Assembly (NCBI GenBank): GCA_018669475.1
Contig: JABHCC010000061.1
Location: 124,001 to 188,000 of the forward strand
DNA from: Bacteroidota bacterium
Lineage (GTDB): Bacteria; Bacteroidota; Bacteroidia; Bacteroidales; UBA12481
Direction: 5' to 3'
DNA: 64,000 nucleotides
The translations under genes were made by a program, and so were the position numbers. Position 1 is the stretch's first letter. The number at the start of each line of letters is the position of its first letter. Shown one piece after another: positions 2,578 through 63,294 of this stretch. The notes under the pieces were generated by a model that was given only the letters and a program-made list of their open reading frames with translations, was not told the origin of the DNA and did no database searches.

Positions 2578-4053
2578 ATGAAAACTTCGATTAAGCTATT
2601 TGGGCTGGGATGCCTGCTGTCAATAATTACCCTGGCCTGCAACAAAACAAGCACAGAAGGCCCATACTTTGGTAATGGAATTCATAATGGCTGGGCCGAC
2701 CAGCACTCAATAGTGATTTGGACCCGCCTGACTAAAAACCCTGAGATGAATTCTTCGGGACAAGCATTCACCGTACTCAAGCCCCAGGAACGAAACAATC
2801 TCCATAAATCAGCTGATAAAGAATTGATCATGGCCGCACAAATTCCTGATAGTCTGAGCCTGGAAGATATGGAAGGTGCCTGTCAGGGAGCATTTGGTGA
2901 AGTCAGGCTCATTTATCATCCGGTAGGAGAAGCTGAAAAAACTGAAGAAACGAACTGGCAGGAAGTTGATTCAACTGAAAATTTCACCCGACAATGGAAG
3001 CTTGATAATCTCCAGGCTGGTACGAGATATGAGATATGTATATACGCACGAAAGGGCTCTGAATCTGCAATTTGCGATAGTATCAAAGGTGCATTTTTTC
3101 TGCCTCCGGATGATAATACGATTGAGGATATTAGTTTCGCTATCGTTACCGGTCATGATTACAACCGAAGAGATGACTCTTTAGGCGGACATAAAATTTA
3201 CCAATCCATGGGGGCAGATCAGCCTGATTTTTATGTGCATACAGGTGACACTGAATATTATGATAAATTCAATCCCTGGGCCATGACAGAAGAACTGATG
3301 CGCTTCAAATGGGATCGCCTTTTTGCCCTGCCATACCAGCGCGATTTTTGGACCCATACTACATCATATTTTATCAAAGATGATCATGATGTGCTCAAAA
3401 ATGATTGTTATCCAGGCACTCATTATGGCACGGTAAGTTTTGAACGAGGAGTAGATATTTTCGATAAAGAACAATTTCCAAGTAATGAAAAACGATACAA
3501 AACTATTCGCTGGGCAAAAGATTTGCAAATATGGATTGTGGAAGGTCGTAATTTCAGATCTGATAATCGCCTGCCGGATGGAGCCGATAAGTCAATTTGG
3601 GGTAAAGAGCAAAAAGAATGGCTTTTCAGAACGATCCGGGAATCAGATGCTACATTCAAAATAATTATCTCCCCAACACCCATTCTGGGTCCTGATCGGA
3701 AAAATAAAAACGATAATCATGCTAATGAAGGATTTCAATATGAAGGTGATGAAATCAGAGGTTTTATAAAGCAGTATGACAATGTTTTTATTTGCTGCGG
3801 TGACAGACACTGGCAATACGTATCACATTTGGCCGACTCCAATCTTTGGGAATTCTCAACAGGTCCTGGTTCAGATAGCCATGCAGGAGGATGGTCACAA
3901 AAAGACAAACGCCCCGAACACCGTTATTTACGGGTTGGGGGCGGCTATCTGTTTGGCCAAATTTATCGTGAAAATGAGAAGCCTGTATTAGAATTCCAGC
4001 ATTGCGATGTTGATGGCAATGTTATGCACACTGAACAATTTGGCTTAGATTAA
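2578..4053 (+). CDS. PhoD-like metallophosphatase, predicted lipoprotein
   Basis: 491-residue exported protein with a hydrophobic leader ending at Cys21, likely a lipoprotein signal. The metal-ligand pattern of the PhoD/purple-acid-phosphatase-like fold is visible: VTGHD, then HTGDTEYYD, then KDDHDV, and finally CGDRHWQY with its GDRH. Such enzymes hydrolyse phosphate mono- or diesters in the periplasm or at the cell surface, using Ca/Fe or similar metals. An Ig-like segment (about 100-180) precedes the catalytic domain, as in PhoD proteins. The gene is convergent with the AGFxN-repeat gene and their stop codons overlap (TTAA at 4050-4053). The exact substrate is unknown. Confidence 0.85.
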   Translation: MKTSIKLFGLGCLLSIITLACNKTSTEGPYFGNGIHNGWADQHSIVIWTRLTKNPEMNSSGQAFTVLKPQERNNLHKSADKELIMAAQIPDSLSLEDMEGACQGAFGEVRLIYHPVGEAEKTEETNWQEVDSTENFTRQWKLDNLQAGTRYEICIYARKGSESAICDSIKGAFFLPPDDNTIEDISFAIVTGHDYNRRDDSLGGHKIYQSMGADQPDFYVHTGDTEYYDKFNPWAMTEELMRFKWDRLFALPYQRDFWTHTTSYFIKDDHDVLKNDCYPGTHYGTVSFERGVDIFDKEQFPSNEKRYKTIRWAKDLQIWIVEGRNFRSDNRLPDGADKSIWGKEQKEWLFRTIRESDATFKIIISPTPILGPDRKNKNDNHANEGFQYEGDEIRGFIKQYDNVFICCGDRHWQYVSHLADSNLWEFSTGPGSDSHAGGWSQKDKRPEHRYLRVGGGYLFGQIYRENEKPVLEFQHCDVDGNVMHTEQFGLD

Positions 4054-5252
4054 TTATTAATGCCAACTCTAATTCCTGCTGCAAAACCAGGATACATACT
4101 CACTACAGTATTACGATTGGTACGTTCAAATACTTTCCAGTCGCGAAATGAAGGATTCATACCACTATTGTCATTTCTTGTATCTGTTACCCAAACATTC
4201 CAACTTGGTCCGGCATATGCACTTAGCATTGATGTAAACTGATAGTTGGCTGTTAGATTAGCCCGGTTAAGCATGTTAACATGATTACTCCACCAACGGT
4301 CTTCATTGATGTGATAACTTACTACTTCTAAACTAAGATCTAATTTATTGAAAACAGGTATTAAGGTACCAATACCGTATCCCCATCCCCACTTAATCTC
4401 ATCATCCTGTACGGCAGCACCAACAGAGACAATATTATAGAAGCTTCTCACGCCGGTTTTGAAACTGATCTCTCCATACAAGGTCTCATTTCCACCCAGC
4501 TGAATGACCTTATATCCATTTTTAACAAAGCTCATAAATCCTATAGCTACACCCTTTTCAATGGTATCAGCCACATTCACCACACCAACTTGTAAACCAT
4601 TGACTTTTTTGGCATAATTCACAAACCCGGAAGCCTGAACACCTGTAACTGTACCAAGACTCACGTTAGCAAATCCGGCAAATTGTCCACCCTTGTTTTC
4701 TCCAGTACTTACATTAGCAAAGCCAGCAGCCTGCAGACCTGTACGGGTACCTAAACTGGTATTTAAGAATCCGCTGAACTGACCCAGGGTAGTTCCCCAT
4801 GAGTGGTTGCTGAATCCCGCAGCCTGAATACCTTCAACCTCTTCCAGACACAAGTTGGTAAAACCAGCAACCTGGGTACCATAAACCTTGCGATGGTTAT
4901 AATTATAAAACCCGGCAGCTTCTATACCTTTTGCTGTTCCGAATGTATTGTTGCAAAATCCGGCAAGCTGAACTCCATGCATATCCCATCTCAAAACATT
5001 AGCAAAACCCGACATTTCCAATCCTTCCAGACCACCTGAAAAGCCGGCAAGCATGTTAAATGATAAATGATTAATTGTACTCCATGAGTGTATTCCATTT
5101 GTACTAAGTGGAGTAATAAAACTTACTTGTACCATACTTTCATGAGCATCGTCCTGAGCATTGTGCTGAGGTTCATCCTGAGCATTAATTTGCAACAATG
5201 ATCCGCCAGCAAGCAGCAGTATACATAGGGTAAATAATCTTGATAATTTCAT
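4050..5252 (-). CDS. Secreted AGFxN-repeat surface protein
   Basis: 400-residue protein with a Sec signal peptide ending near Ala24 (INAQ). Residues ~70-230 hold about ten repeats of 16 residues with the pattern GxQxAGFxN. A conserved segment follows (GVAIGFMSF, then FKTG..SFYN) and then a beta-strand-rich C-terminus that could be an outer-membrane or surface sheet. It resembles proteins annotated as LA_2272-type surface repeat proteins, whose biochemical function is not known. It is the last gene of the sigma/FecR/STN operon and is paralogous to the gene just upstream. The repeats predict a regular beta-solenoid-like stack (inference). Confidence 0.85.
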   Translation of the reverse strand: MKLSRLFTLCILLLAGGSLLQINAQDEPQHNAQDDAHESMVQVSFITPLSTNGIHSWSTINHLSFNMLAGFSGGLEGLEMSGFANVLRWDMHGVQLAGFCNNTFGTAKGIEAAGFYNYNHRKVYGTQVAGFTNLCLEEVEGIQAAGFSNHSWGTTLGQFSGFLNTSLGTRTGLQAAGFANVSTGENKGGQFAGFANVSLGTVTGVQASGFVNYAKKVNGLQVGVVNVADTIEKGVAIGFMSFVKNGYKVIQLGGNETLYGEISFKTGVRSFYNIVSVGAAVQDDEIKWGWGYGIGTLIPVFNKLDLSLEVVSYHINEDRWWSNHVNMLNRANLTANYQFTSMLSAYAGPSWNVWVTDTRNDNSGMNPSFRDWKVFERTNRNTVVSMYPGFAAGIRVGINN

Positions 5253-5356
5253 TTTTGTTTGTTTTAATAATTTCGGTTTTTTCTTCTCTCAATAGGATGA
5301 CATATCAAGAGTAAAATACCCCTATCCGGATAGCAAAAAAAAATGAAAAAAATTGA

Positions 5357-7228
5357 TTATATCCTTACACCTGCAGTAATTCCTACCCATGCCCGTGACC
5401 GGGTATTGCCAAGTATTTTGTCATAAAATGGTTTTATAACAGTAAGAGGGAGATCCAGAGATGCTTCAGAATCAAATTCAGTCAGGAGATTAATAGATGG
5501 ACCAAGCAGTAGACTGAAATTCTTGGCCAACATCACGTTAAATGTTGCTTTAAGCTGATTAAGTGTTCCCACCAAAGCTTCAAAACTATCAGTACGGTTA
5601 AGTATTTTTGAATTGGCTTCCAAACTAATTGACAGGCTTCTATTCAGATTAAACTGGGTTCCCAAACCATAACCTGCGTATGCCAACTCTTTTTGAGCAC
5701 CGGCTGAAAATATATTATAGAATCGATGTGTGCCAGTTTTAAATTCGAGGTTAAGCCAGAATAACTCATTGCTGCTTATCTCTACTTCATGAAATCCCTT
5801 TCTGACAAAACTAAAAAAGCCTATCGGAACACCGGAGCTAACTGTATCACTAACATTAAAAACGGATAATTGTAGGCCATCTACTTCTGTAGCATAATTT
5901 ATAAATCCTGCTATCTGTGTCCCACTATTTCGTCGTGAGGCTACATTGGCAAAGCCAGCTATCTGGAGTCCTTCGACACTCCTGCAGTAGTTGGCAAATC
6001 CACTTGCCTGGGCAATCTTAACATCTTTCACAGCAACATTAGTAAACCCTGCAGCCTGTACTCCATCAACATTCTGACTGGTAAAATTTGCAAAACCAGA
6101 AGCCTGCAGTCCATACATTGGCCCATGCAAAGTATTAAAGAAACCAGCAAGTTGAGTACCTCTTATAGTATCCAGCGCAACATTTCCAAAACCAGCTGCC
6201 TGTGTGCCTACCATTGAACCGGCAGTAACATTGAAAAACCCTGCACCCTGAAATCCACGACTTATTCCACCAACAACATTACCAAAACCAGCTAATTGCA
6301 CACCTCTCATATCGCCACGAACAATATTCTGGAAACCACCCAGTTCTAATCCATTCACGCCTCCGGAATAACCAGCAAGAATATTAACAGAAAAACGATT
6401 AGTAATCAAACCAGTCACAAATCTATTCGTACCGACAAAAGGCAAAAATGAGACCTGAACCAGACGTTCCTCATGTACCTGAACGTTATCAGCCATAACT
6501 ACAGCCCTCTTGGGAACGAGAGCAGCAACCACGGGTCGCTTATGAATATCTGGTGAAACCTCTGATTTGCCCTTAAAACCAATCATCACATCCGGCAGGG
6601 GACTTAAATAAACATTGTGTGACCACTCGTCAACAGGGCGAACAATTATGACAGTATCGAGATAGCCTACCTTACTATAGTTCAGATACTGAACCTTTTC
6701 AGTTGCGGGCAGACTCAAAGAATAATATCCTTCCTTGTTCGTAAAAGAATTCTGCCTCAATTCAACTTCATAAATACTAGCCTGGCTAATTTTCTCACCG
6801 GTACGTGAATCAATGATGTAACCGCTAATAGTATATGTTCGTTTGCGTTCGTCCCGTGTAGGTTTCTTTGGAGCTATTGATTCGAGGATTATAAGGTGGT
6901 TACCAATTACTTTATAGCGATACTCATCGCCAAGCAAATCCACGAGCACTTTGTCAACTGTTTCGTTATTTGCATGGACATTGATAATACTGTCTCCGGG
7001 AATTATTTCTGAATTGTATGAAAAAGAGAAACCTGCTGCATCTCCAATCTCAAGCAAGGCATCCTGCAAAGGCATATTTTGAATATCCACATTAACATCA
7101 GCCTCAAGATGATTGGTTTGGGCAGATACTTGATTTGCAAGAACACCCCAGATTAAAAAAGAAAAGTATACAAATGAGTATTTGTAATTTTTGAGGTGAT
7201 CTAATACTCTGATTAGTTGATTATTCAT
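5357..7228 (-). CDS. STN + CarboxypepD-regulatory domain protein with AGFxN repeats
   Basis: About 623 residues from the chosen start. The reading frame could open at 7303, but the ATG at 7226-7228 gives a clean signal peptide (SFVYFSFLIWG...VSAQ) and overlaps the fecR stop by 8 bp (ATGAATAA), indicating translational coupling. After the signal comes an STN (secretin/TonB short N-terminal) domain, then a carboxypeptidase-regulatory-like beta-sandwich (TISGYIIDSRTGEKIS), a linker, about ten 16-residue GxQxAGFxN repeats, and a strand-rich C-terminus shared with the next gene. In Bacteroidetes transducers the STN domain contacts FecR in the periplasm. Here it is joined to surface-type repeats rather than a TonB-dependent barrel. 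Signal-sensing output is inferred from operon position. Confidence 0.85.
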   Translation of the reverse strand: MNNQLIRVLDHLKNYKYSFVYFSFLIWGVLANQVSAQTNHLEADVNVDIQNMPLQDALLEIGDAAGFSFSYNSEIIPGDSIINVHANNETVDKVLVDLLGDEYRYKVIGNHLIILESIAPKKPTRDERKRTYTISGYIIDSRTGEKISQASIYEVELRQNSFTNKEGYYSLSLPATEKVQYLNYSKVGYLDTVIIVRPVDEWSHNVYLSPLPDVMIGFKGKSEVSPDIHKRPVVAALVPKRAVVMADNVQVHEERLVQVSFLPFVGTNRFVTGLITNRFSVNILAGYSGGVNGLELGGFQNIVRGDMRGVQLAGFGNVVGGISRGFQGAGFFNVTAGSMVGTQAAGFGNVALDTIRGTQLAGFFNTLHGPMYGLQASGFANFTSQNVDGVQAAGFTNVAVKDVKIAQASGFANYCRSVEGLQIAGFANVASRRNSGTQIAGFINYATEVDGLQLSVFNVSDTVSSGVPIGFFSFVRKGFHEVEISSNELFWLNLEFKTGTHRFYNIFSAGAQKELAYAGYGLGTQFNLNRSLSISLEANSKILNRTDSFEALVGTLNQLKATFNVMLAKNFSLLLGPSINLLTEFDSEASLDLPLTVIKPFYDKILGNTRSRAWVGITAGVRI

Positions 7229-8312
7229 CCCTTGAGCAACCCACTCCCGTAAGTTTATATTGGTCTCCATCTGTGATAAGTTCAAGTTCAAAAGAAGCTG
7301 CAATAACCGCCATTATATGATCCATTTTTTCTCCAGTGAAGCTAGCTGACAATAAACAGGCCAAAATGCCTTTATCACTAACTAGAATTTCAAATTCGTA
7401 GTATTTTTTCAGGATGACAAATACATCAGCGAGCTCAGTTTCCTGGAAAATCAATTTGCGATCAGCCCAGAAAAGCTCATCGGGCTGCAGATCAGATGAT
7501 CGATACAATTCCTTATTTGCCTTTGATAGTACTCCCTTTTCACCAGCCTCCAGCAAGAGGGTTTTCACCGCTGCCCCCAGACTATCGGTCAGCACAAGCT
7601 CAACTAATCCACTTTCAACCACCACTTCCATATCCTCATTTGGATAAGCTTTTACGTTAAACTCCGTGCCAAGTACACGAACCTGTCCTGTCCCTGCCTT
7701 AATAACAAATGGTTTTGCCGTATCAGCTTTGACCGAGAAGAAAGCTTCACCTTTCAACTCGACACTTCTCTCATTCTCAACAAAGGTTTCAGGAAAAGAT
7801 AAAACAGATTGCTCATTCAATGCAATTGATGATCCATCACTCAAGGTGTCAAATACTACTTCAGCAAAACTTTCAATTTTCAAAGAAGGAAAAATTTCGG
7901 TCGTGTTTTTAAACCAGTCCGTATAAATGACAGATAATACGGATATAATTGCAAGAGCGGCTACAGCAACTGACCAGTAAAGAGTTCTGGCTCTTCCGGT
8001 CATGGGAGGAAGCACATCCTGAAACTGGATGTCTGAATCCAGGCTTTCATCATTCTGAACCTCATTATCATCCAGCATTAGCTGCTCCATCCTGTTCCAT
8101 GCCTTATCAACATCCACAGCTACCGGCTGAGGCTCAAGCTGACCTGTTTCATGCCAGGTTTGCTCCAGTTCTCTGAAGGTCTGTTTATTGCTTGCTGAAT
8201 ATCGAATCCAGGCCTCCACTTCCTGGCGGCCTTTCTCCGAGATCTCATCCAGCAAATAGAGTAACAGCAATCGTTTGTCGATATGGATAGGATCGTTCTG
8301 CATGAATCTCAT
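7221..8312 (-). CDS. FecR-family anti-sigma factor
   Basis: 363-residue inner-membrane anti-sigma factor. A cytoplasmic N-terminal region (1-110) is expected to bind the ECF sigma factor. A single transmembrane helix lies at about 111-130. The periplasmic FecR domain follows (~150-245; RSVELKGEAFFSV, VLGTEFNVKAY), then a C-terminal secretin-like DUF4974 domain (~285-355). The sigma gene is 43 bp upstream and the STN-repeat gene overlaps its 3' end. By analogy with FecR systems it relays an outer-membrane STN signal to the sigma factor. Met1 and Met4 are both possible starts. Confidence 0.92.
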   Translation of the reverse strand: MRFMQNDPIHIDKRLLLLYLLDEISEKGRQEVEAWIRYSASNKQTFRELEQTWHETGQLEPQPVAVDVDKAWNRMEQLMLDDNEVQNDESLDSDIQFQDVLPPMTGRARTLYWSVAVAALAIISVLSVIYTDWFKNTTEIFPSLKIESFAEVVFDTLSDGSSIALNEQSVLSFPETFVENERSVELKGEAFFSVKADTAKPFVIKAGTGQVRVLGTEFNVKAYPNEDMEVVVESGLVELVLTDSLGAAVKTLLLEAGEKGVLSKANKELYRSSDLQPDELFWADRKLIFQETELADVFVILKKYYEFEILVSDKGILACLLSASFTGEKMDHIMAVIAASFELELITDGDQYKLTGVGCSRDE

Positions 8313-8316
8313 AATT

Positions 8317-8336
8317 AAGACAGTTCAAGCTGTCTT
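8317..8336 (-). promoter_or_regulatory. Perfect hairpin in sigma-fecR intergenic leader
   Basis: A perfect 7-bp inverted repeat (AAGACAG / CTGTCTT, 6-nt loop) fills the space just upstream of the fecR start codon, which is 4 nt away. No Shine-Dalgarno-like sequence is visible between them. In fecR mRNA this stem would sit on the ribosome landing zone. No T-run follows in the direction of transcription, so it does not look like an intrinsic terminator for this operon. A role in setting the sigma to anti-sigma ratio is inference. Confidence 0.4.
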
Positions 8337-8355
8337 TTCACTACTTTTTTTTTAG

Positions 8356-8952
8356 TTAATTCAAAAAATCTTTAAAGTCATTAAATAACCCTCTAAATAT
8401 CAGCAATATAAGAGGCATATAGTCAGATAAATTTTTTCGCATAAATTGAAGAGCCTTATACATCTGATTTTCTACTGTTTTGACAGAAATACCTAATTTA
8501 TCAGCAATTTCCCGATATTTCAATCCATCATAACGGCTCATAACGAAAACCTTTCGGCGTTCAATTGGGAGCAAATCAATACTCTCTCTTATTTTATTCT
8601 CTAATTCGCTTACAATGGAATCATCAACAAACTTCTGTTCAGTTTGCTGAATCTCCTGCTCATTGAAACTCTTATAATCCTCCCGGATGGAGATATGGCT
8701 GATTAAGTTGAGACAGGCATTTCTTACCGCCCTGAACAAATATGATTTGACAGAAGATTTAATCACCAGGTTTTCCCTGCCCTTCCAAAGTTTGAACAAA
8801 ACTTCCTGAACTATGTCTTCGGCCGCATCCAGATCATTCAGGAAGACATTAGCATAGGCGCACAGTTTACTATAATGATCACGAAACAGACTTTCGAATT
8901 CTGATTTGCTTCCCAAAACTGCCTGAGCAGATATGTGCAGGGTAGTTTCCAC
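8356..8952 (-). CDS. ECF-type RNA polymerase sigma factor
   Basis: 198-residue sigma-70-family factor of the Bacteroidetes ECF type. Region 2 is at about 22-90 (FRDHYSKLCAYANVFL, AAEDIVQEVLFKLW). Region 4 is at about 128-185, with the helix-turn-helix YREIADKLGISVKTVENQ. The start codon is GTG at 8950-8952, since no ATG precedes region 2 in this frame. A -7-like element lies 28 bp upstream. It heads the operon with fecR and the two AGFxN-repeat genes and presumably directs their transcription once released by FecR. It is divergent from the lipoprotein gene starting at 8975. Confidence 0.92.
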   Translation of the reverse strand: METTLHISAQAVLGSKSEFESLFRDHYSKLCAYANVFLNDLDAAEDIVQEVLFKLWKGRENLVIKSSVKSYLFRAVRNACLNLISHISIREDYKSFNEQEIQQTEQKFVDDSIVSELENKIRESIDLLPIERRKVFVMSRYDGLKYREIADKLGISVKTVENQMYKALQFMRKNLSDYMPLILLIFRGLFNDFKDFLN

Positions 8953-8974
8953 TATTTTTTGCTACGGAACATTA

Positions 8975-10642
8975 ATGCTACAAAAGTATAAAAAATGGAA
9001 AGTACTTTATAACTTCACTCCAAAACTAATTCCTTATATTTTGAAATCCTTATTTATCATCCTGTTCAGTCTGATTATTTTCTCCTCTTGTCAGGAGATT
9101 CAATTCGATCAGAAAATCCTTGACCAAACAAGTATTAATGCTGAACTCGCCCATGAAGGGTTCAGTCGTTGCAGGAGCTTCATATCTGCCTGGCTGGAAT
9201 ATGCTGATTCAGCAACTGGCCTTATTCCCAGGAATATTCAGTCAAGCAAAGATATCTGGAATGCTCAGGATGCCGCAGCAGACAACTACCCATTTATGGT
9301 TTTAAGTACTGCAATAACTGACCCTACCATGTTTCAGGGAAAAATGCTGGATATGCTGCGGATGGAAACTAAACTTACTTCAAGGGTAGGTGCATTACCA
9401 GACACCTGGTCTTTTGAAAAACAAGACTTTGCCAACTCTGAGCTAGACATGAATAGTATTCTTTTTGGCTCATCAGAGTATATCAAAGATGGCTTGCTGC
9501 CTTTAACTGAATGGTTAGGAGAAAGCCCCTGGTCAAACAGGATGATCAGCATACTTGATGATATGTGGGCCCATGCACAATTCGAAACAGATTATGGTAA
9601 TATAGTGACTCCTAATGTTGAAGTTCATGGAGAAATGCTGCAAACATTATCCAGAATTTACTGGATGACAGGCCAGAAAAAATACCTCGACTGGGCCATT
9701 CGTATTGGTGATTATTATCTCTTGGGAGATCAAAACCCGGCGATAAATAAGGAGAGCCTCAGACTACGCGATCATGGCTGTGAGATAATCTCTGGTTTGT
9801 GTGAGCTATATGCTACTCTGAGTGTAGTCAATCCCTCACGGCGAATGATATACAAAGTCCCCATTAATGAGATGCTAAACCGGATTCTTGAAACAGGGAG
9901 AAATGAGCATGGTATGTTTTATAATACAGTCAATCCTCAAACAGGAGCAGTTTTGGATCAAAGAATGTCAGACAATTTTGGCTACAACCTGAACGGATTT
10001 TATACCGTTTATATGGTTGACGGAGTCGAAAAATACCGTCAAGCTGCTCTCACTGCTCTCGGAACACTTAATAATAACTACAAAAAATATTTGTGGGAGG
10101 GCAGCCAGGGGACTGGTAGTGCTGACGGTTATGCTGATGCAATTGAAGGAGCCTTAAATATATATAATCGTGAACCCCTTCCCTCCGCTGCCGAGTGGAT
10201 TGATAGTGAAATTCAGGAAATGTGGAGTAAACAACAAGAGAGCGGTATAATTGAAGGATGGCATGGAGACGGGAATTTTGCGCGTACAACAATCATGTAC
10301 TGTTTATGGAAGACACAGGGAATTACACTGGATCCATGGCGTGATGATCTGAAATTCGGAGCCCTGGTCAATAATGATAGCCTTTACATTTCGATTTCTG
10401 CATCCAGCAAGTGGGAGGGCAGACTAATTTTTGACACTCCACGTCACAATACTTCCCTCAATATGCCCTTTGACTGGCCAAGAATCAACCAGTTTCCCGA
10501 ATGGTATGCAGTTAAGAACAAAAAATACTACGTTTTTTGGTCAGATAAGGAAAGCAGACAATACAAGGGGAAAAAATTATCTGAAGGAGTTAATATACAA
10601 ATCAAACCAGGTAGACAATTGTTTGTCATCACCGAATCCTGA
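8975..10642 (+). CDS. Lipoprotein with predicted (alpha/alpha) toroid, function unknown
   Basis: About 555 residues from the ATG at 8975. An upstream possible start at 8933 would put extra residues in front of the signal and overlap the sigma gene. The leader ends in a lipobox IFSSC (Cys39), so a lipid-anchored envelope protein is predicted. The body is rich in alpha-helical, aromatic segments (WDDYHF-like spacing, YLDWAIRIGDYYL, DGYADAIEGALNIYN, YCLWKTQGI) typical of six-hairpin glycosidase-like folds, with a short beta-rich tail. No catalytic motif can be assigned with confidence. A carbohydrate-active role is only suggested, by fold impression and by similar proteins elsewhere in the window. 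Confidence 0.7.
   Translation: MLQKYKKWKVLYNFTPKLIPYILKSLFIILFSLIIFSSCQEIQFDQKILDQTSINAELAHEGFSRCRSFISAWLEYADSATGLIPRNIQSSKDIWNAQDAAADNYPFMVLSTAITDPTMFQGKMLDMLRMETKLTSRVGALPDTWSFEKQDFANSELDMNSILFGSSEYIKDGLLPLTEWLGESPWSNRMISILDDMWAHAQFETDYGNIVTPNVEVHGEMLQTLSRIYWMTGQKKYLDWAIRIGDYYLLGDQNPAINKESLRLRDHGCEIISGLCELYATLSVVNPSRRMIYKVPINEMLNRILETGRNEHGMFYNTVNPQTGAVLDQRMSDNFGYNLNGFYTVYMVDGVEKYRQAALTALGTLNNNYKKYLWEGSQGTGSADGYADAIEGALNIYNREPLPSAAEWIDSEIQEMWSKQQESGIIEGWHGDGNFARTTIMYCLWKTQGITLDPWRDDLKFGALVNNDSLYISISASSKWEGRLIFDTPRHNTSLNMPFDWPRINQFPEWYAVKNKKYYVFWSDKESRQYKGKKLSEGVNIQIKPGRQLFVITES
8981..8988 (-). promoter_or_regulatory. -7 promoter element (TACTTTTG) for the ECF sigma operon
   Basis: Reads TACTTTTG on the minus strand, a perfect match to the Bacteroidetes TAnnTTTG -7 consensus, 28 bp before the GTG start. 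That gives a leader of roughly 20-25 nt. No convincing -33 TTTG was found at the usual distance. The element lies inside the first codons of the divergent lipoprotein gene. Confidence 0.45.
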
Positions 10643-10833
10643 CCAAGCTCTTCCCGGCATTTCTTTTCTAAAGTTCAGGTGCAAATACTATAGATTATGT
10701 TCTGATATTTGGAATTATTCCCCTTATTGGAATTTGTGGTTTTAAGTGGGGGGTCTTAATGTCCTTATACTCTGCGTGTTCTGTCTTTGGCCTATAACTT
10801 GTCTGCTTTTAGGAAACAAAAAAACATAGAGCC

Positions 10834-12728
10834 ATGTTTTACGGAAATAAATATTTTCAAAACAAGATACTAATTGCACTAGCAGGGGTAGTAATTCTCA
10901 TATCATCGTGTGAAACCGATGATTTCTATTCAAGCATTGAAAATAGCAATCCTGGCAATCGTTTGATTGTGAACAATAACATTTCAGAATTAAATCAAAG
11001 AATCACTCGTTTTGATGACTATTATCTGGAATACAATAATGTTGATTCAAAAACCAAAACTTCCGGAGGAAGTGAAAACTGGGATGATTATATTTTGGTA
11101 TTGCGAGCTGAGGTTGCTCCTGGGAATATAATGGGCATACCTTGCAGGCAACTGACGTCAGAATAATCGATGACCATGTTTTTGTTAGTTATGCAACTAT
11201 TGGAGATTCTTATTTAGGTGGTGTTGAGATTTTTAATGTTAGCGATACAGAACATCCCGAATTAATCTCTCAATTATTATTTACTGATACTGATGTTTTC
11301 TCATTGGATGTTAATGGTAATAAAGTCTATCTGGCCGCGGCTCGGGAGAACTTTGAATATTACAATTTACAAAGTCCTGCTATTGTAGAATCTGTTGAAT
11401 ATACTGACTTCCAGCTAACCACGAACACTAAACATGCAGATTTACCAGGCTTTGTCGGAAAATCAGTGTTGAGTCATGGCCTAAACATATATACAACCTC
11501 GGCAGATAATGGAGGATTATCAGTGCTATATGCTTCGAATCTTGAAACTGTAGGGTTTTCAAGTTTCGAAGAATCAAGAGATGTTGAAATTTACAATAAT
11601 GCAATCTATTTACTTAACGGTGAGCCTGGCAATCTTGTTGAAATCGAGCCCGACAATCTAATAATACAGCACCAGACTGCTCTCGATGGTGCCCGCACAC
11701 CTGACTCAAAGTCTACTTTCGAAATCCATGACAACAAGTTGTTTGTATCACTTGGCGAAGAAGGAGTGAAAATAATGAATCTCGATAATGAAGAGATAAT
11801 CGAAAGTTTGAGTCGCCCTGAAATCCCTGAAGATGCGAATCCATCTGACTATGTAAGTAATGCACTTTCTGTTGACGGAGACTACATATTCATTGCCAAT
11901 GGTGCTGCAGGTTTATATTTGGCTCATTACACCCCAGAGGACGGGTTATCATTAATTGGTAGTGTTGGCTTTCAATCATCAACCAACTATGTCCAAGCCA
12001 AAGACAATATTATTTTCGTTGCCACTGGAAATGGAGGACTCAAAATTCTTGAAATGGTAGAATACAATCCTGATGAAGGAAACTTTCTAACACTCAGCGA
12101 CTATGACGAGGATGGTGTTCCTGTCAACTCTGAAGGAGTACAGGATCTTCCAGGCAGTTTGTTTGATGATCTTGATCGGGCACTACCAGAAAACAGATCT
12201 GCTCTTAAAGATCATCCGGAATATTTTAGTGCTGTTCCAACAAGTGTTGAATTATCGAAAGAGGCTGATATCTATGTTACCTTCCTTAGTGAAGGAGCTA
12301 GTTGGACAAATACATTAGGTTACTACTTGTACAACGCCGACAATCCTCCCGAATCACCAGAAGATATTGAACAACTTACCGTAATTTTCCCTAATACTTC
12401 AGAACCCTTTAGCGGTGGTAATCTGGAACCAGGAACAACAGTGCATCTGGGAAAAATCAAACCGAATCAGGTAGTAGGATTCTTCCAGGTAGCTCGTGGA
12501 TGGAGTCAGAAATTGACTAAAGGCCTTTACACTCACTACAGCGATTATGAGACAGGCTCCCCACAACATAGTGTATTGCTCCATGACCAGAAAAGAAACT
12601 CTTTGATTATAGCTTTCGAAGACATTAAATTGCCATATGGCGACAAAGATTTTAACGATGTTATTGTCAAGGTTTTCAGTTATCCTGAAGACGCCCTTAA
12701 AACTGATGCCTTACCCAAAATAAATTAG
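10834..12728 (+). CDS. LVIVD-repeat/DUF4114 lipoprotein, interrupted by a frameshift
   Basis: Two overlapping frames form one protein of about 630 residues. Frame one (10834-11166) gives a lipoprotein leader (lipobox LISSC, Cys26) and reads into NIMG; the second frame continues HTLQATDVRIIDDHVFVSY from about 11135. One missing base near 11131-11135 (ATGGGC; an extra G restores frame) explains the break. The middle part has propeller-like LVIVD repeats (GVEIFNVSD, LDVNGNKVYLAA, GGLKILEM). The C-terminus is a DUF4114 domain ending in the acidic, probably Ca-binding DKDFNDVIVKVF. It is likely a secreted surface protein of unknown partner. Whether the break is real or a sequencing error cannot be told from sequence alone. 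Confidence 0.8.
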
Positions 12729-13667: not shown

Positions 13668-15035
13668 ATGGCAACTCCGGTAATACTTCCCCGTCAGGGA
13701 CAATCTGTTGAATCTTGCATAATCACTGAACTACTCGTTAAAAAAGGTGATTCTATAAAAAGTGGTGATGTGCTGTTTAAATATGAAACAGACAAAGCTG
13801 CTTTCGAACTGGAAGCAGAACAAGATGGATGCATTATTGAGATTCTGGTAGAAGAAGGAGACGAAGTTCCAGTACTAGCAACAATACTAGCCATAGGAAA
13901 CCCAGGAGAAAAATACGTCCCGGAAGACCAAAAACCAAAGACCAAGGACCAAAGACCAGCGACCAAGGACCAAAGACCAGCGACCAAGGACTCAGGACCC
14001 CGGACAACGGGCCCCGGACCCCGGACCACAGACCACGGACCAAGGACCACGGACCCCGGACCCCGGACCCCGGACCACGGACCCCGCCCCCCGATCTCTC
14101 CCAGAGCAAAAAACCTGGCGCTAAAGATTGGTGTTCCGTTCAGTCGTATTTCAGGTAGCGGTCCTGATGGACGAATCATAGAAAGAGACATAGAAGCCTA
14201 TGCCAAAGATGGTGGCCGTTTGACTTCTCTGGCCAGTGCAAAAAGTACTCAAACTGAGCTATTGCCTGGACCGTCAGGCAATGGTCTGGGTGGTAGAATA
14301 TTAGATACTGATCTTGGAGCAGGAACAATTGGAACAGGCAGTGACTCTTCAATCTCCAAAATATCTAACATCCGGAAAATCATTGCCCAGAACATGCACG
14401 CCTCACTGCAAAACAGTGCCCAATTAACTCATCATATGAGTGCCGATGCCCGGGCTATTCTTGGTATCCGGAAGGTGGTGAAACAGAAATTGGAAACAGA
14501 AGGAGGAGAAAACATCACCCTGAATGACCTGGTCTGCTATTCAGTTATTAAGGCTCTCAAAAACATGCCTGAGATCAACAGTCACTTTTTAGGTGATTCA
14601 ATTAAAACATTTAATAAAGTTCATCTGGGAATAGCTGTTGATACCGACCGCGGACTAATGGTACCAGCCCTGCGGAATGCTGATGACATGACTATAGATC
14701 AACTGTCAAAAGAACTAAAAAATTTAGCTAATAGCTGTAAAAATGGTAATGTTGATCCTGATCTGCTAACTCCAACGGCCGCAAGTTTTACGGTATCGAA
14801 CCTGGGTGCCTTCGGTGTGGAAATGTTTACCCCGGTAATTAATCTTCCTCAATCAGGAATTCTCGGTGTGAATACAATAATTCAACGTCCGGGTGATGCA
14901 GGAAATGGTATTATTGGATTTATCCCTTATATCGGACTCTCACTCACATATGATCACCGGGTTATTGATGGAGCTCCGGCATCAGCTTTCCTCCGGGAGA
15001 TAAAAACACAAATAGAAAATCTCACTATCAACTAA
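13668..15035 (+). CDS. Dihydrolipoamide acyltransferase (E2) of a 2-oxoacid/acetoin dehydrogenase complex
   Basis: 455-residue E2 core protein. The lipoyl domain (1-77) carries the lipoylated Lys43 in ETDKAAFELE. A repeat-encoded linker (87-142) is unusually built from 7-residue units such as GPRTTDP. A peripheral-subunit-binding domain follows (about 144-182; SPRAKNLALKIGVPF, SGSGPDGRIIERDI). A second, shortened copy of that motif appears at ~204-222 (GLGGRILDTDL). The catalytic acyltransferase domain (~228-455) ends with DHRVIDG (His430, Asp434). It transfers an acyl group from lipoamide to CoA. E3 and fused E1 genes follow directly, so a complete complex is encoded. The substrate 2-oxoacid or acetoin cannot be told from sequence alone. 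Confidence 0.92.
   Translation: MATPVILPRQGQSVESCIITELLVKKGDSIKSGDVLFKYETDKAAFELEAEQDGCIIEILVEEGDEVPVLATILAIGNPGEKYVPEDQKPKTKDQRPATKDQRPATKDSGPRTTGPGPRTTDHGPRTTDPGPRTPDHGPRPPISPRAKNLALKIGVPFSRISGSGPDGRIIERDIEAYAKDGGRLTSLASAKSTQTELLPGPSGNGLGGRILDTDLGAGTIGTGSDSSISKISNIRKIIAQNMHASLQNSAQLTHHMSADARAILGIRKVVKQKLETEGGENITLNDLVCYSVIKALKNMPEINSHFLGDSIKTFNKVHLGIAVDTDRGLMVPALRNADDMTIDQLSKELKNLANSCKNGNVDPDLLTPTAASFTVSNLGAFGVEMFTPVINLPQSGILGVNTIIQRPGDAGNGIIGFIPYIGLSLTYDHRVIDGAPASAFLREIKTQIENLTIN
13926..14093 (+). repeat. Heptanucleotide tandem repeat array, 24 units, inside the E2 gene
   Basis: Exactly 24 consecutive 7-bp units of the form GACCNNN (mostly GACCAAG, GACCACG, GACCCCG; a few degenerate) run from 13926 to 14093 with no break in phase. 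Three units equal seven codons, so the encoded linker has a 7-residue period (GPRTTDP/GPRTTDH). The 168-bp array begins on the first base of codon 87 and spans 56 codons. It is visibly more GC-rich than the surrounding gene. Confidence 0.92.
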
Positions 15036-62586: not shown

Positions 62587-63294
62587 TTATTTCTTCTTTA
62601 CGCTACCAAGGCTTGAAACAGTCTTATCGAGTTTTGGATTACCGTAATAGGTTATATCTCCTACGCTACTCGCTATAGCCCGCAATTTGTCAGAAACCCT
62701 GACAGTGATATTGGCTGAACTGGATGAGATCACCTCCGCTTCCTTTACTTCAAGTTTTCCGGCTTTCAGATCACCTGCACTACTGGCAGTTCCCTTTAAT
62801 ACAACTGCCTTACCAGATAATATTATATCACCAGCGCTACTGCATTCTGCAATTACTTTCTTTGCTTTCAGGTCGAGTTTTATGTCACCAGCACTACTTG
62901 CATTAAGATACAATTCGCCAGCTTCAATAGTATTCTCTCCTAAAACATCACCAGCACTCGACGCATGGATTGTTTCTATCTTTCCCATTGTAACATGAAC
63001 CTTGTGAGTTTTTGAATCTTTAAAACTTACCTTTTTGTAAACATGAAGTGTTCCATCTTTGACTTCAGTTTTAACATATTCATGCAGGTTTTCCTCAGTT
63101 TCAACAGTAACACTTATTCCATTACCCTGAGTAAGATAAACATCTAATCCAGCCGACACTTCGATGCTGGTAAAATCGTTCATCGAACGTTCTTTGGTAA
63201 CAACAGGGCCTTCGGCCTTAACTTTTTTGCTTTTTTGGGCTGAGACCGAGATGGTAGCAGCTAAACACAATAATAAAACAGCAATTTTCTTCAT
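62587..63294 (-). CDS. Secreted GIN-domain (DUF2807) protein
   Basis: 235 residues with signal peptide (LLLCLAATISVSAQ). The mature part is the GIN/DUF2807 beta-helix: repeated ASSAGD units (HASSAGDVLG, NASSAGDIKL, CSSAGDIIL, ASSAGDLKA, SSSANITV). Such proteins are found throughout Bacteroidetes; their function is uncertain, though the fold resembles adhesin head domains. The single gene is ended by a strong terminator. It is not clearly linked to the GldM locus. Confidence 0.88.
   Translation of the reverse strand: MKKIAVLLLCLAATISVSAQKSKKVKAEGPVVTKERSMNDFTSIEVSAGLDVYLTQGNGISVTVETEENLHEYVKTEVKDGTLHVYKKVSFKDSKTHKVHVTMGKIETIHASSAGDVLGENTIEAGELYLNASSAGDIKLDLKAKKVIAECSSAGDIILSGKAVVLKGTASSAGDLKAGKLEVKEAEVISSSSANITVRVSDKLRAIASSVGDITYYGNPKLDKTVSSLGSVKKK

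Follow-up and report, generated by a model that had tools for sequence, protein, structure and literature searches.

Four minus-strand open reading frames (ORFs) at positions 4050-8952 of the stretch analysed here (64,000 nucleotides of Bacteroidota bacterium assembly GCA_018669475.1, contig JABHCC010000061.1; hereafter the window) encode an extracytoplasmic function (ECF) sigma factor, a FecR-type anti-sigma factor, a protein that joins an STN domain to AGFxN repeats, and a second AGFxN-repeat protein without STN (Table 1). A sequence-only reading of this DNA had named the same four genes, all of which are present as it described, and had proposed that they form a signalling unit in which STN does not sit on a TonB-dependent receptor. 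The domain assignments support this proposal, and we suggest that the STN-repeat protein is an outer-membrane transducer of a kind distinct from transporters.

Table 1. Features of the sigma/FecR/STN-repeat locus (positions in the window; aa, amino acids; nt, nucleotides; pLDDT, predicted local distance difference test)
Feature	Position	Strand	Evidence or remark
ECF sigma factor, 198 aa, GTG start	8356..8952	minus	Sigma70_r2 E 2.1e-13; Sigma70_r4_2 E 4.2e-19
FecR-type anti-sigma factor with FecR_C, 363 aa	7221..8312	minus	FecR E 9.1e-16; FecR_C E 4.1e-7
STN + CarbopepD_reg_2 + predicted beta-solenoid + predicted 8-strand barrel protein, proposed transducer, 623 aa from ATG 7228	5357..7228	minus	
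STN domain	6887..7030	minus	residues 67-114; 29.5 bits vs Pfam cut-off 28.4
Carboxypeptidase-regulatory-like domain	6647..6829	minus	CarbopepD_reg_2 35.9 bits, cut-off 32.2
Ten 16-residue AGFxN repeats, predicted beta-solenoid	5804..6406	minus	unit positions; block pLDDT about 80-96
C-terminal 8-strand outer-membrane barrel (predicted) of STN protein	5357..5797	minus	VIA-align
Second repeat protein without STN: signal peptide, 9 repeats, predicted 8-strand barrel, 400 aa	4050..5252	minus	predicted sigma target
Candidate sigma-dependent promoter TAGGGGTA-N14-TGTCAT	5297..5324	minus	44-46 nt upstream of second repeat gene

The sigma factor is of the Bacteroidota ECF type (TIGR02985 Sig70_bacteroi1, 174 bits against a cut-off of 126, E 2.1e-51). 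A FecR profile built from 23 homologues matches the putative anti-sigma factor 4m0n (E 2e-47) and the periplasmic signalling domain of PupR (6ovk_R, E 7.7e-18), which was crystallised with the signalling domain of PupR's own transducer (PMC7186176). The ORF of the STN-repeat protein is open from TTG 7303, with ATG 7228 the more likely coding start as judged from the sequence; this ATG overlaps the fecR 3' end by 8 nt. In the whole ORF the STN domain scores only 23.3 bits, below the Pfam cut-off, and it rises above it (29.5 bits) once the scan is confined to the first 215 residues counted from ATG 7228. A profile search of the genome to which the window belongs (the own genome) puts STN at the same place, and 23 of 25 homologues match the domain at E<=0.01. 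By these scores the STN segment is not a chance match, which would have undone the original proposal. Among solved structures, the N-terminal profile of the protein also hits SusC homologues, in their CarbopepD part (best E 4.3e-8).

The description of about ten 16-residue repeats behind STN and a carboxypeptidase domain is likewise confirmed by profile scans and unit positions. Units are spaced by 16 residues with one 15-residue step in each protein, so that the STN protein has 10 units and the second one 9, and a longer form of the repeat motif occurs 9 and 8 times, respectively, against shuffle means of 0.024 and 0.029 (2000 shuffles, maximum count 2). No TonB plug was matched in the window proteins at E<=0.1, and no SusC or SusD among the eight proteins scanned at 2578-12728, in agreement with the claim that no SusD follows.

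AlphaFold2 models of both repeat proteins show the repeats as alternating 7- and 4-residue strands, that is, as a beta-solenoid, followed by an eight-stranded up-and-down barrel with VIA-align Z scores of 12.5-16.1 to OmpA, NspA, OprF and a designed barrel. In the second protein (ten-row alignment, mean pLDDT 83.6), residues 243-399 resemble 8-strand outer-membrane barrels, with Z 14.3 to the designed barrel (root-mean-square deviation, rmsd, 1.6 over 110), 13.5 to NspA (rmsd 2.7 over 133) and 12.9 to OmpA (rmsd 3.3 over 135). The barrel of the STN protein (model residues 475-623; mean pLDDT 69.4 overall, with solenoid and barrel at high confidence) gives Z 16.1 to 6x9z, 14.7 to OprF (4rlc), 13.8 to OmpA (1qjp) and 13.4 to NspA (1p4t). 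Both C-termini are therefore predicted to be OmpA-like 8-strand outer-membrane barrels, so that of the earlier statement "no plug/barrel" the first half stands and the second does not; the plug and the barrel of a TonB receptor are the only parts absent. Outer-membrane barrels often end in F, L or I, and the C-terminal residue is F, L or I in 45 of 52 STN-repeat proteins (contig-end L044 excluded), which is consistent with outer-membrane insertion. Sequence searches found no relatives of the repeats among solved structures at E<=1, and Foldseek against PDB gave a best E of 2.9e-3 and none at 0.001; against viral models it returned four matches at E<=0.001, some with barrel or autotransporter-like names, which are not informative. 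VIA-align rows for the solenoid include GlmU (Z 13.6, rmsd 9.5) and a tailspike (Z 11.3, rmsd 3.9); the GlmU helix is left-handed and the tailspike helix right-handed, and the solenoid could be of either hand.

The gene set recurs in other genomes. At differing cut-offs, repeat-family matches were found in 18 of the 60 near relatives scanned, in 83 of 395 genomes of the phylum and in 56 of 295 genomes of the order. The loci inspected (L-numbers denote fetched loci, G-numbers genomes and C-numbers own-genome contigs) were partly hand-picked: a first batch of 20 places plus the window and an own-genome paralogue; eight of nine further loci (L036 was dropped because it shares its contig with L050); 40 places from the 83 phylum genomes with a match, including all 17 long-frame ones of the class; and 40 from the 56 matching order genomes, 25 of them picked for frames of at least 546 aa. 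Among 53 loci with an STN-repeat gene, FecR lies immediately upstream in 50 and both FecR and sigma in 48, which answers positively the question, raised from the window alone, of whether the order is kept elsewhere. In L100 and L143 FecR is present and no sigma gene was found adjoining, L044 lies at a contig end, and L109 and L161 encode an STN-repeat protein (in L161 at 6047-7786) with neither gene nearby. For STN-less repeat ORFs in loci without an STN-repeat ORF (n=59), FecR occurs within 6 kb in just two, both pieces of a single broken operon copy (L168). In relatives, the set is often extended by a repeat protein that lacks STN, by a DUF2807 protein (E 1.3e-38) and by a TonB receptor of the CarbopepD-Plug type, likewise STN-less. 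Overall, comparison of these loci indicates that the gene set is widespread in Bacteroidota and not a local oddity.

Four STN-less repeat ORFs do have a sigma gene nearby (L039, L042, L169 on the opposite strand, and L173). In L173 (213-2704), a 374-aa ORF carries sigma regions followed by a stretch that looks like a Dma-type anti-sigma factor and a membrane helix, and it overlaps a repeat-barrel gene with an internal signal-peptide-like segment. L039 (2097-4629, Microscillaceae) has a sigma gene and then a repeat-barrel ORF whose product contains a membrane helix and a tether rich in proline, in a record that is apparently frame-shifted. L042 (375-3937, Spirochaetales) groups an ECF sigma gene with an anti-sigma-like ORF (~260 aa) and with a protein that has a caspase domain and terminates in this type of repeat barrel, suggesting that the pairing of sigma factor and repeat barrel extends to another phylum.

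A tree of 76 C-terminal parts (L042, L043, L131, L134-L136 and the cut L051 row were left out, and L137-L176, fetched afterwards, are absent) contains one supported group (96) that unites 25 of 28 STN-repeat proteins, 10 of 12 STN-less operon twins and two stand-alone proteins. Its supported branches require at least four changes for the twin label and at least four for the STN label. L056 and L060 are placed apart, and both lack the CarbopepD domain. These two and L160 (not in the tree) have a signal-peptide-like segment directly before the repeats: in L056 (7592-9196), L060 (6210-8057) and L160 (5377-7320), the segment between STN and repeats consists of Met, Lys/Arg, a hydrophobic run and AQ. 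It may be either a gene-fusion fossil or an internal start giving an STN-less form from the same gene, and we read this lineage as a probable separate STN fusion. In a sigma-factor tree the linked sigma factors cluster; given very long outgroup branches, the tree shows only that.

The search for sigma target promoters, which had been suggested as a check on the system, yielded the motif AGGGGT-N16-GTC. It was found in six of six upstream regions compared, from the window and from five genomes in which the repeat gene is separate from the sigma operon. Across 1,507,854 bases of fetched loci, a spacer of 16 gives 59 matches and each of 13 other spacer lengths 0-7; with GTC[AT]T the contrast is 41 against 0-1. 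The majority of the spacer-16 matches are followed at short distance by a gene for a repeat protein, a DUF2807 protein, a TonB receptor, a sigma factor or FecR. The form AGGGGT-N15-TGTC is present in 35 of 53 STN-repeat loci versus 8 of 57 other repeat loci, and six of these eight (L166-L169, L171, L172) are repeat clusters or a broken operon of the same kind. The strict motif was present in all eight same-family genomes with the system, seven of which played no part in defining it, and in none of the four without (p 0.002); a slightly looser form was present in 23 of 42 further genomes with the system versus 5 of 38 without (p 1.3e-4), where "without" means no repeat-family match at the cut-offs of the phylum and order surveys. 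Outside the family, strict matches in G022, G025 and G048 lie inside ORFs and were set aside as chance, and one in G030 is intergenic, 37 nt before a DUF4139/Plug protein. The exact 16-nt spacing and the GTC element are in keeping with an ECF promoter.

In the own genome, three of 15 loose matches are intergenic with a full -10 element, and they stand upstream of three unlinked genes: the window repeat gene, a DUF2807 gene on contig C211 (motif about 33 nt upstream) and an STN-less CarbopepD-Plug TonB receptor gene on C133 (~95 nt from the ORF start, ~145 nt from a later ATG). These are the gene kinds that share an operon in relatives. The C133 receptor is one of four close own-genome homologues of a relative's operon receptor (529 bits; the other three score 402-591, and all further matches <=83). 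The full motif is absent at the other three TonB-receptor paralogues and the other three DUF2807 genes of this genome (one weak site lies inside L206). A DUF2807 protein (E 3.4e-47) whose gene lacks the promoter motif is encoded towards the far end of the window itself, at 62587-63294. A site upstream of a putative rpoB gene has a poor -10 and was taken as chance.

Similar trans placements occur in other genomes. G531 has four motif matches, one before a repeat gene, one before a DUF2807 gene and two before genes of the CarbopepD/TonB-receptor type, all on contigs other than that of the sigma operon. Trans matches also precede receptors in G249 and G468, a repeat-DUF2807-like pair in G574, a similar secreted protein of 206-216 aa in G108 and G245 (L250, L251) and a protein of 209-224 aa in G568 and G660 (L255, L260); the last two kinds are possible further targets. 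Trans matches inside ORFs (L249, L256, L257) and one 232 nt from a Clp-like start (L254) were discarded as chance. The AGGGGT-N16-GTC motif is probably read by the window sigma factor, whose predicted targets are the sensor's twin lacking STN, a DUF2807 protein (head-GIN) and a TonB receptor of the plug type that has no STN.

The own genome encodes other candidate partners for FecR, although the names of the C71, C133 and C211 genes rest partly on our reading of their sequences. C211 (L066:1220-8132) carries a second sigma/FecR pair with its own receptor, and the motif-bearing DUF2807 gene lies downstream on this contig, about 5 kb from the C211 sigma gene. STN receptors on C71 (with DUF4249) and C133 (SusC/SusD) have no sigma or FecR beside them in the fetched stretch. 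A SusC/SusD pair elsewhere, if shown to be the real partner, had been named as one finding that would refute the proposal. We rejected such a receptor as the FecR partner: that of C211 has its own sigma/FecR and those of C71 and C133 have none nearby, which leaves a partnership with the latter two a small residual chance. The overlapping and conserved fecR-STN gene pair argues instead for the repeat protein. Elsewhere in the window, the ORF at 13668-15035 resembles an acyltransferase of the lipoyl type and contains a repetitive linker (KDQRPATKDQRPATKD...GPRTTDHGPRTTD).

The gene order, domain content, recurrence and motif placement, all established computationally, are best explained by ECF sigma/FecR cell-surface signalling through an outer-membrane transducer other than a TonB-dependent receptor, STN having been uncoupled from transport and placed on a solenoid-barrel protein; we put the probability of this reading at roughly 0.75. 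The transducer would consist of periplasmic STN and CarbopepD domains, a linker, the beta-solenoid and the 8-strand barrel as outer-membrane anchor. STN would dock on the periplasmic end of FecR, and a change in the outer membrane, a change in the solenoid or a ligand could alter this contact, upon which FecR would release the sigma factor. The freed sigma factor would then read promoters of the form TAGGGGTA-N14-TGTC(A/T)T and transcribe its targets. The STN-less twin, itself a product of activation, might then act as a competitor of the sensor and attenuate the response. We infer this direction of signalling, as well as TonB independence and feedback; with no plug there is no obvious route for TonB energy.

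Several observations weigh against this interpretation. In five of the 53 STN-repeat loci the sigma gene is missing, either alone or together with fecR, and in 18 of the 53, including the divergent L056, L060 and L160, AGGGGT-N15-TGTC is absent from the fetched stretch. The six loci that defined the pattern are also in the counts, and of the 50 genomes with the system in the two tests, 6 (five among the 42) had contributed to the definition of the motif. The loose motif is not enriched genome-wide in the own genome (15 matches versus 28 in a reversed control), and as a general genome signal it was dismissed as being at chance. The C211 sigma factor could read the motif at the C211 DUF2807 gene. 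The STN/CarbopepD part of the transducer (mostly pLDDT <60) and its linker are modelled poorly, and the side of the membrane on which the solenoid lies is deduced from the topology of the predicted barrel.

Signalling could still be coupled to TonB if the plug-type receptor of the regulon were the real sensor and the STN-repeat protein an adaptor linking it to FecR. The STN-less CarbopepD-Plug receptor is indeed a recurrent neighbour and bears the motif in the own genome, but many STN-repeat loci, that of the window included, have no such receptor within 6 kb, and its position downstream of the motif places it as a target; we regard this arrangement as unlikely. The same receptor qualifies the contrast originally drawn with nutrient uptake, which holds insofar as the carrier of STN is not a receptor, whereas uptake may be an output of the system. 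Somewhat less probable again is that the motif is read by the C211 sigma/FecR pair or a DNA-binding regulator, the window sigma factor having other targets. The proximity of the motif-bearing DUF2807 gene to the C211 sigma gene would suit this idea; however, in other genomes the motif lies upstream of this operon's sigma or fecR gene or of the adjoining repeat gene, its presence tracks that of the STN-repeat system across genomes, and the exact spacing with the GTC element suits an ECF promoter.

The suggestion that the system reads a surface-layer state found no support, and that the repeats are surface-exposed and sense an external or surface-layer structure seems improbable. Related repeats are named 'surface repeat' in NCBIfam, and the tree has the STN-less twin recruited several times, but no surface-layer gene was found, and the N-terminus of an 8-strand barrel faces the periplasm, the side where STN must meet FecR. 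A decayed or chance arrangement without signalling function, of which the broken copy L168 and the fecR genes split into two ORFs in L048 and L150 might be taken as signs, is scarcely credible, given that homologues recognised at the protein level keep the order across the class, with a conserved promoter motif alongside.

Beyond the window, a broader and more tentative picture, which we hold to be possible but doubtful, extends the transporter-independent transducer to the phylum: TonB-independent outer-membrane sensors would have arisen as STN moved at least twice from transporters to solenoid-barrel proteins, for which the signal-peptide-like segment at the join in L056, L060 and L160 can be cited, with the twin as competitor, DUF2807 and the STN-less receptor as further members, and one promoter serving homeostasis with feedback.

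One of the closest known systems is FecA/PupB/FpvA-type signalling, which likewise combines an ECF sigma factor with a FecR whose periplasmic part is PupR-like and with a transducer carrying STN at its N-terminus (PMC7186176). In the window, the sigma gene adjoins fecR, the periplasmic domain is of the PupR kind and the partner has an N-terminal STN, but this partner has neither plug nor TonB-receptor domain, being instead a predicted solenoid on an 8-strand barrel. The SusC/SusD ECF/FecR systems of Bacteroidota likewise place STN and then CarbopepD before the membrane part, whereas the window set lacks a SusC barrel and SusD, and the TonB receptor of the set lacks STN. Dma anti-sigma factors, associated with ECF21 sigma factors (PMC13088901), also link an ECF sigma factor to a non-transporter outer-membrane beta-barrel (PMC13088901, PMC9308784). 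A single Dma chain, however, with anti-sigma domain, transmembrane helix, tether and barrel spans both membranes, whereas FecR and the barrel protein of the window are separate ORFs that would meet via STN. The LA_2272 / VC2662 repeat family (NCBIfam NF047436, NF047437) has the same kind of short repeat: six of ten family members match NF047436 at E<=0.01 (best 3.1e-16), and the window proteins reach 18.1 and 19.4 bits, below the cut-off of 25. The descriptions of both models mention neither STN nor a sigma link, and no description of an STN-solenoid-barrel transducer or of the AGGGGT-N16-GTC motif was found in the literature searched (titles and abstracts, with most subscription papers outside this scope). 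Transporters are generally regarded as the seat of FecR/STN signalling. In the system described here, this relay is apparently attached to a non-transporting outer-membrane protein common in Bacteroidota, which may thus have a second route, besides Dma, by which an ECF sigma factor is informed of outer-membrane state. A promoter and a small regulon can be predicted for the system, which also provides a first context for two poorly understood families, the AGFxN repeat barrels and the DUF2807 proteins.

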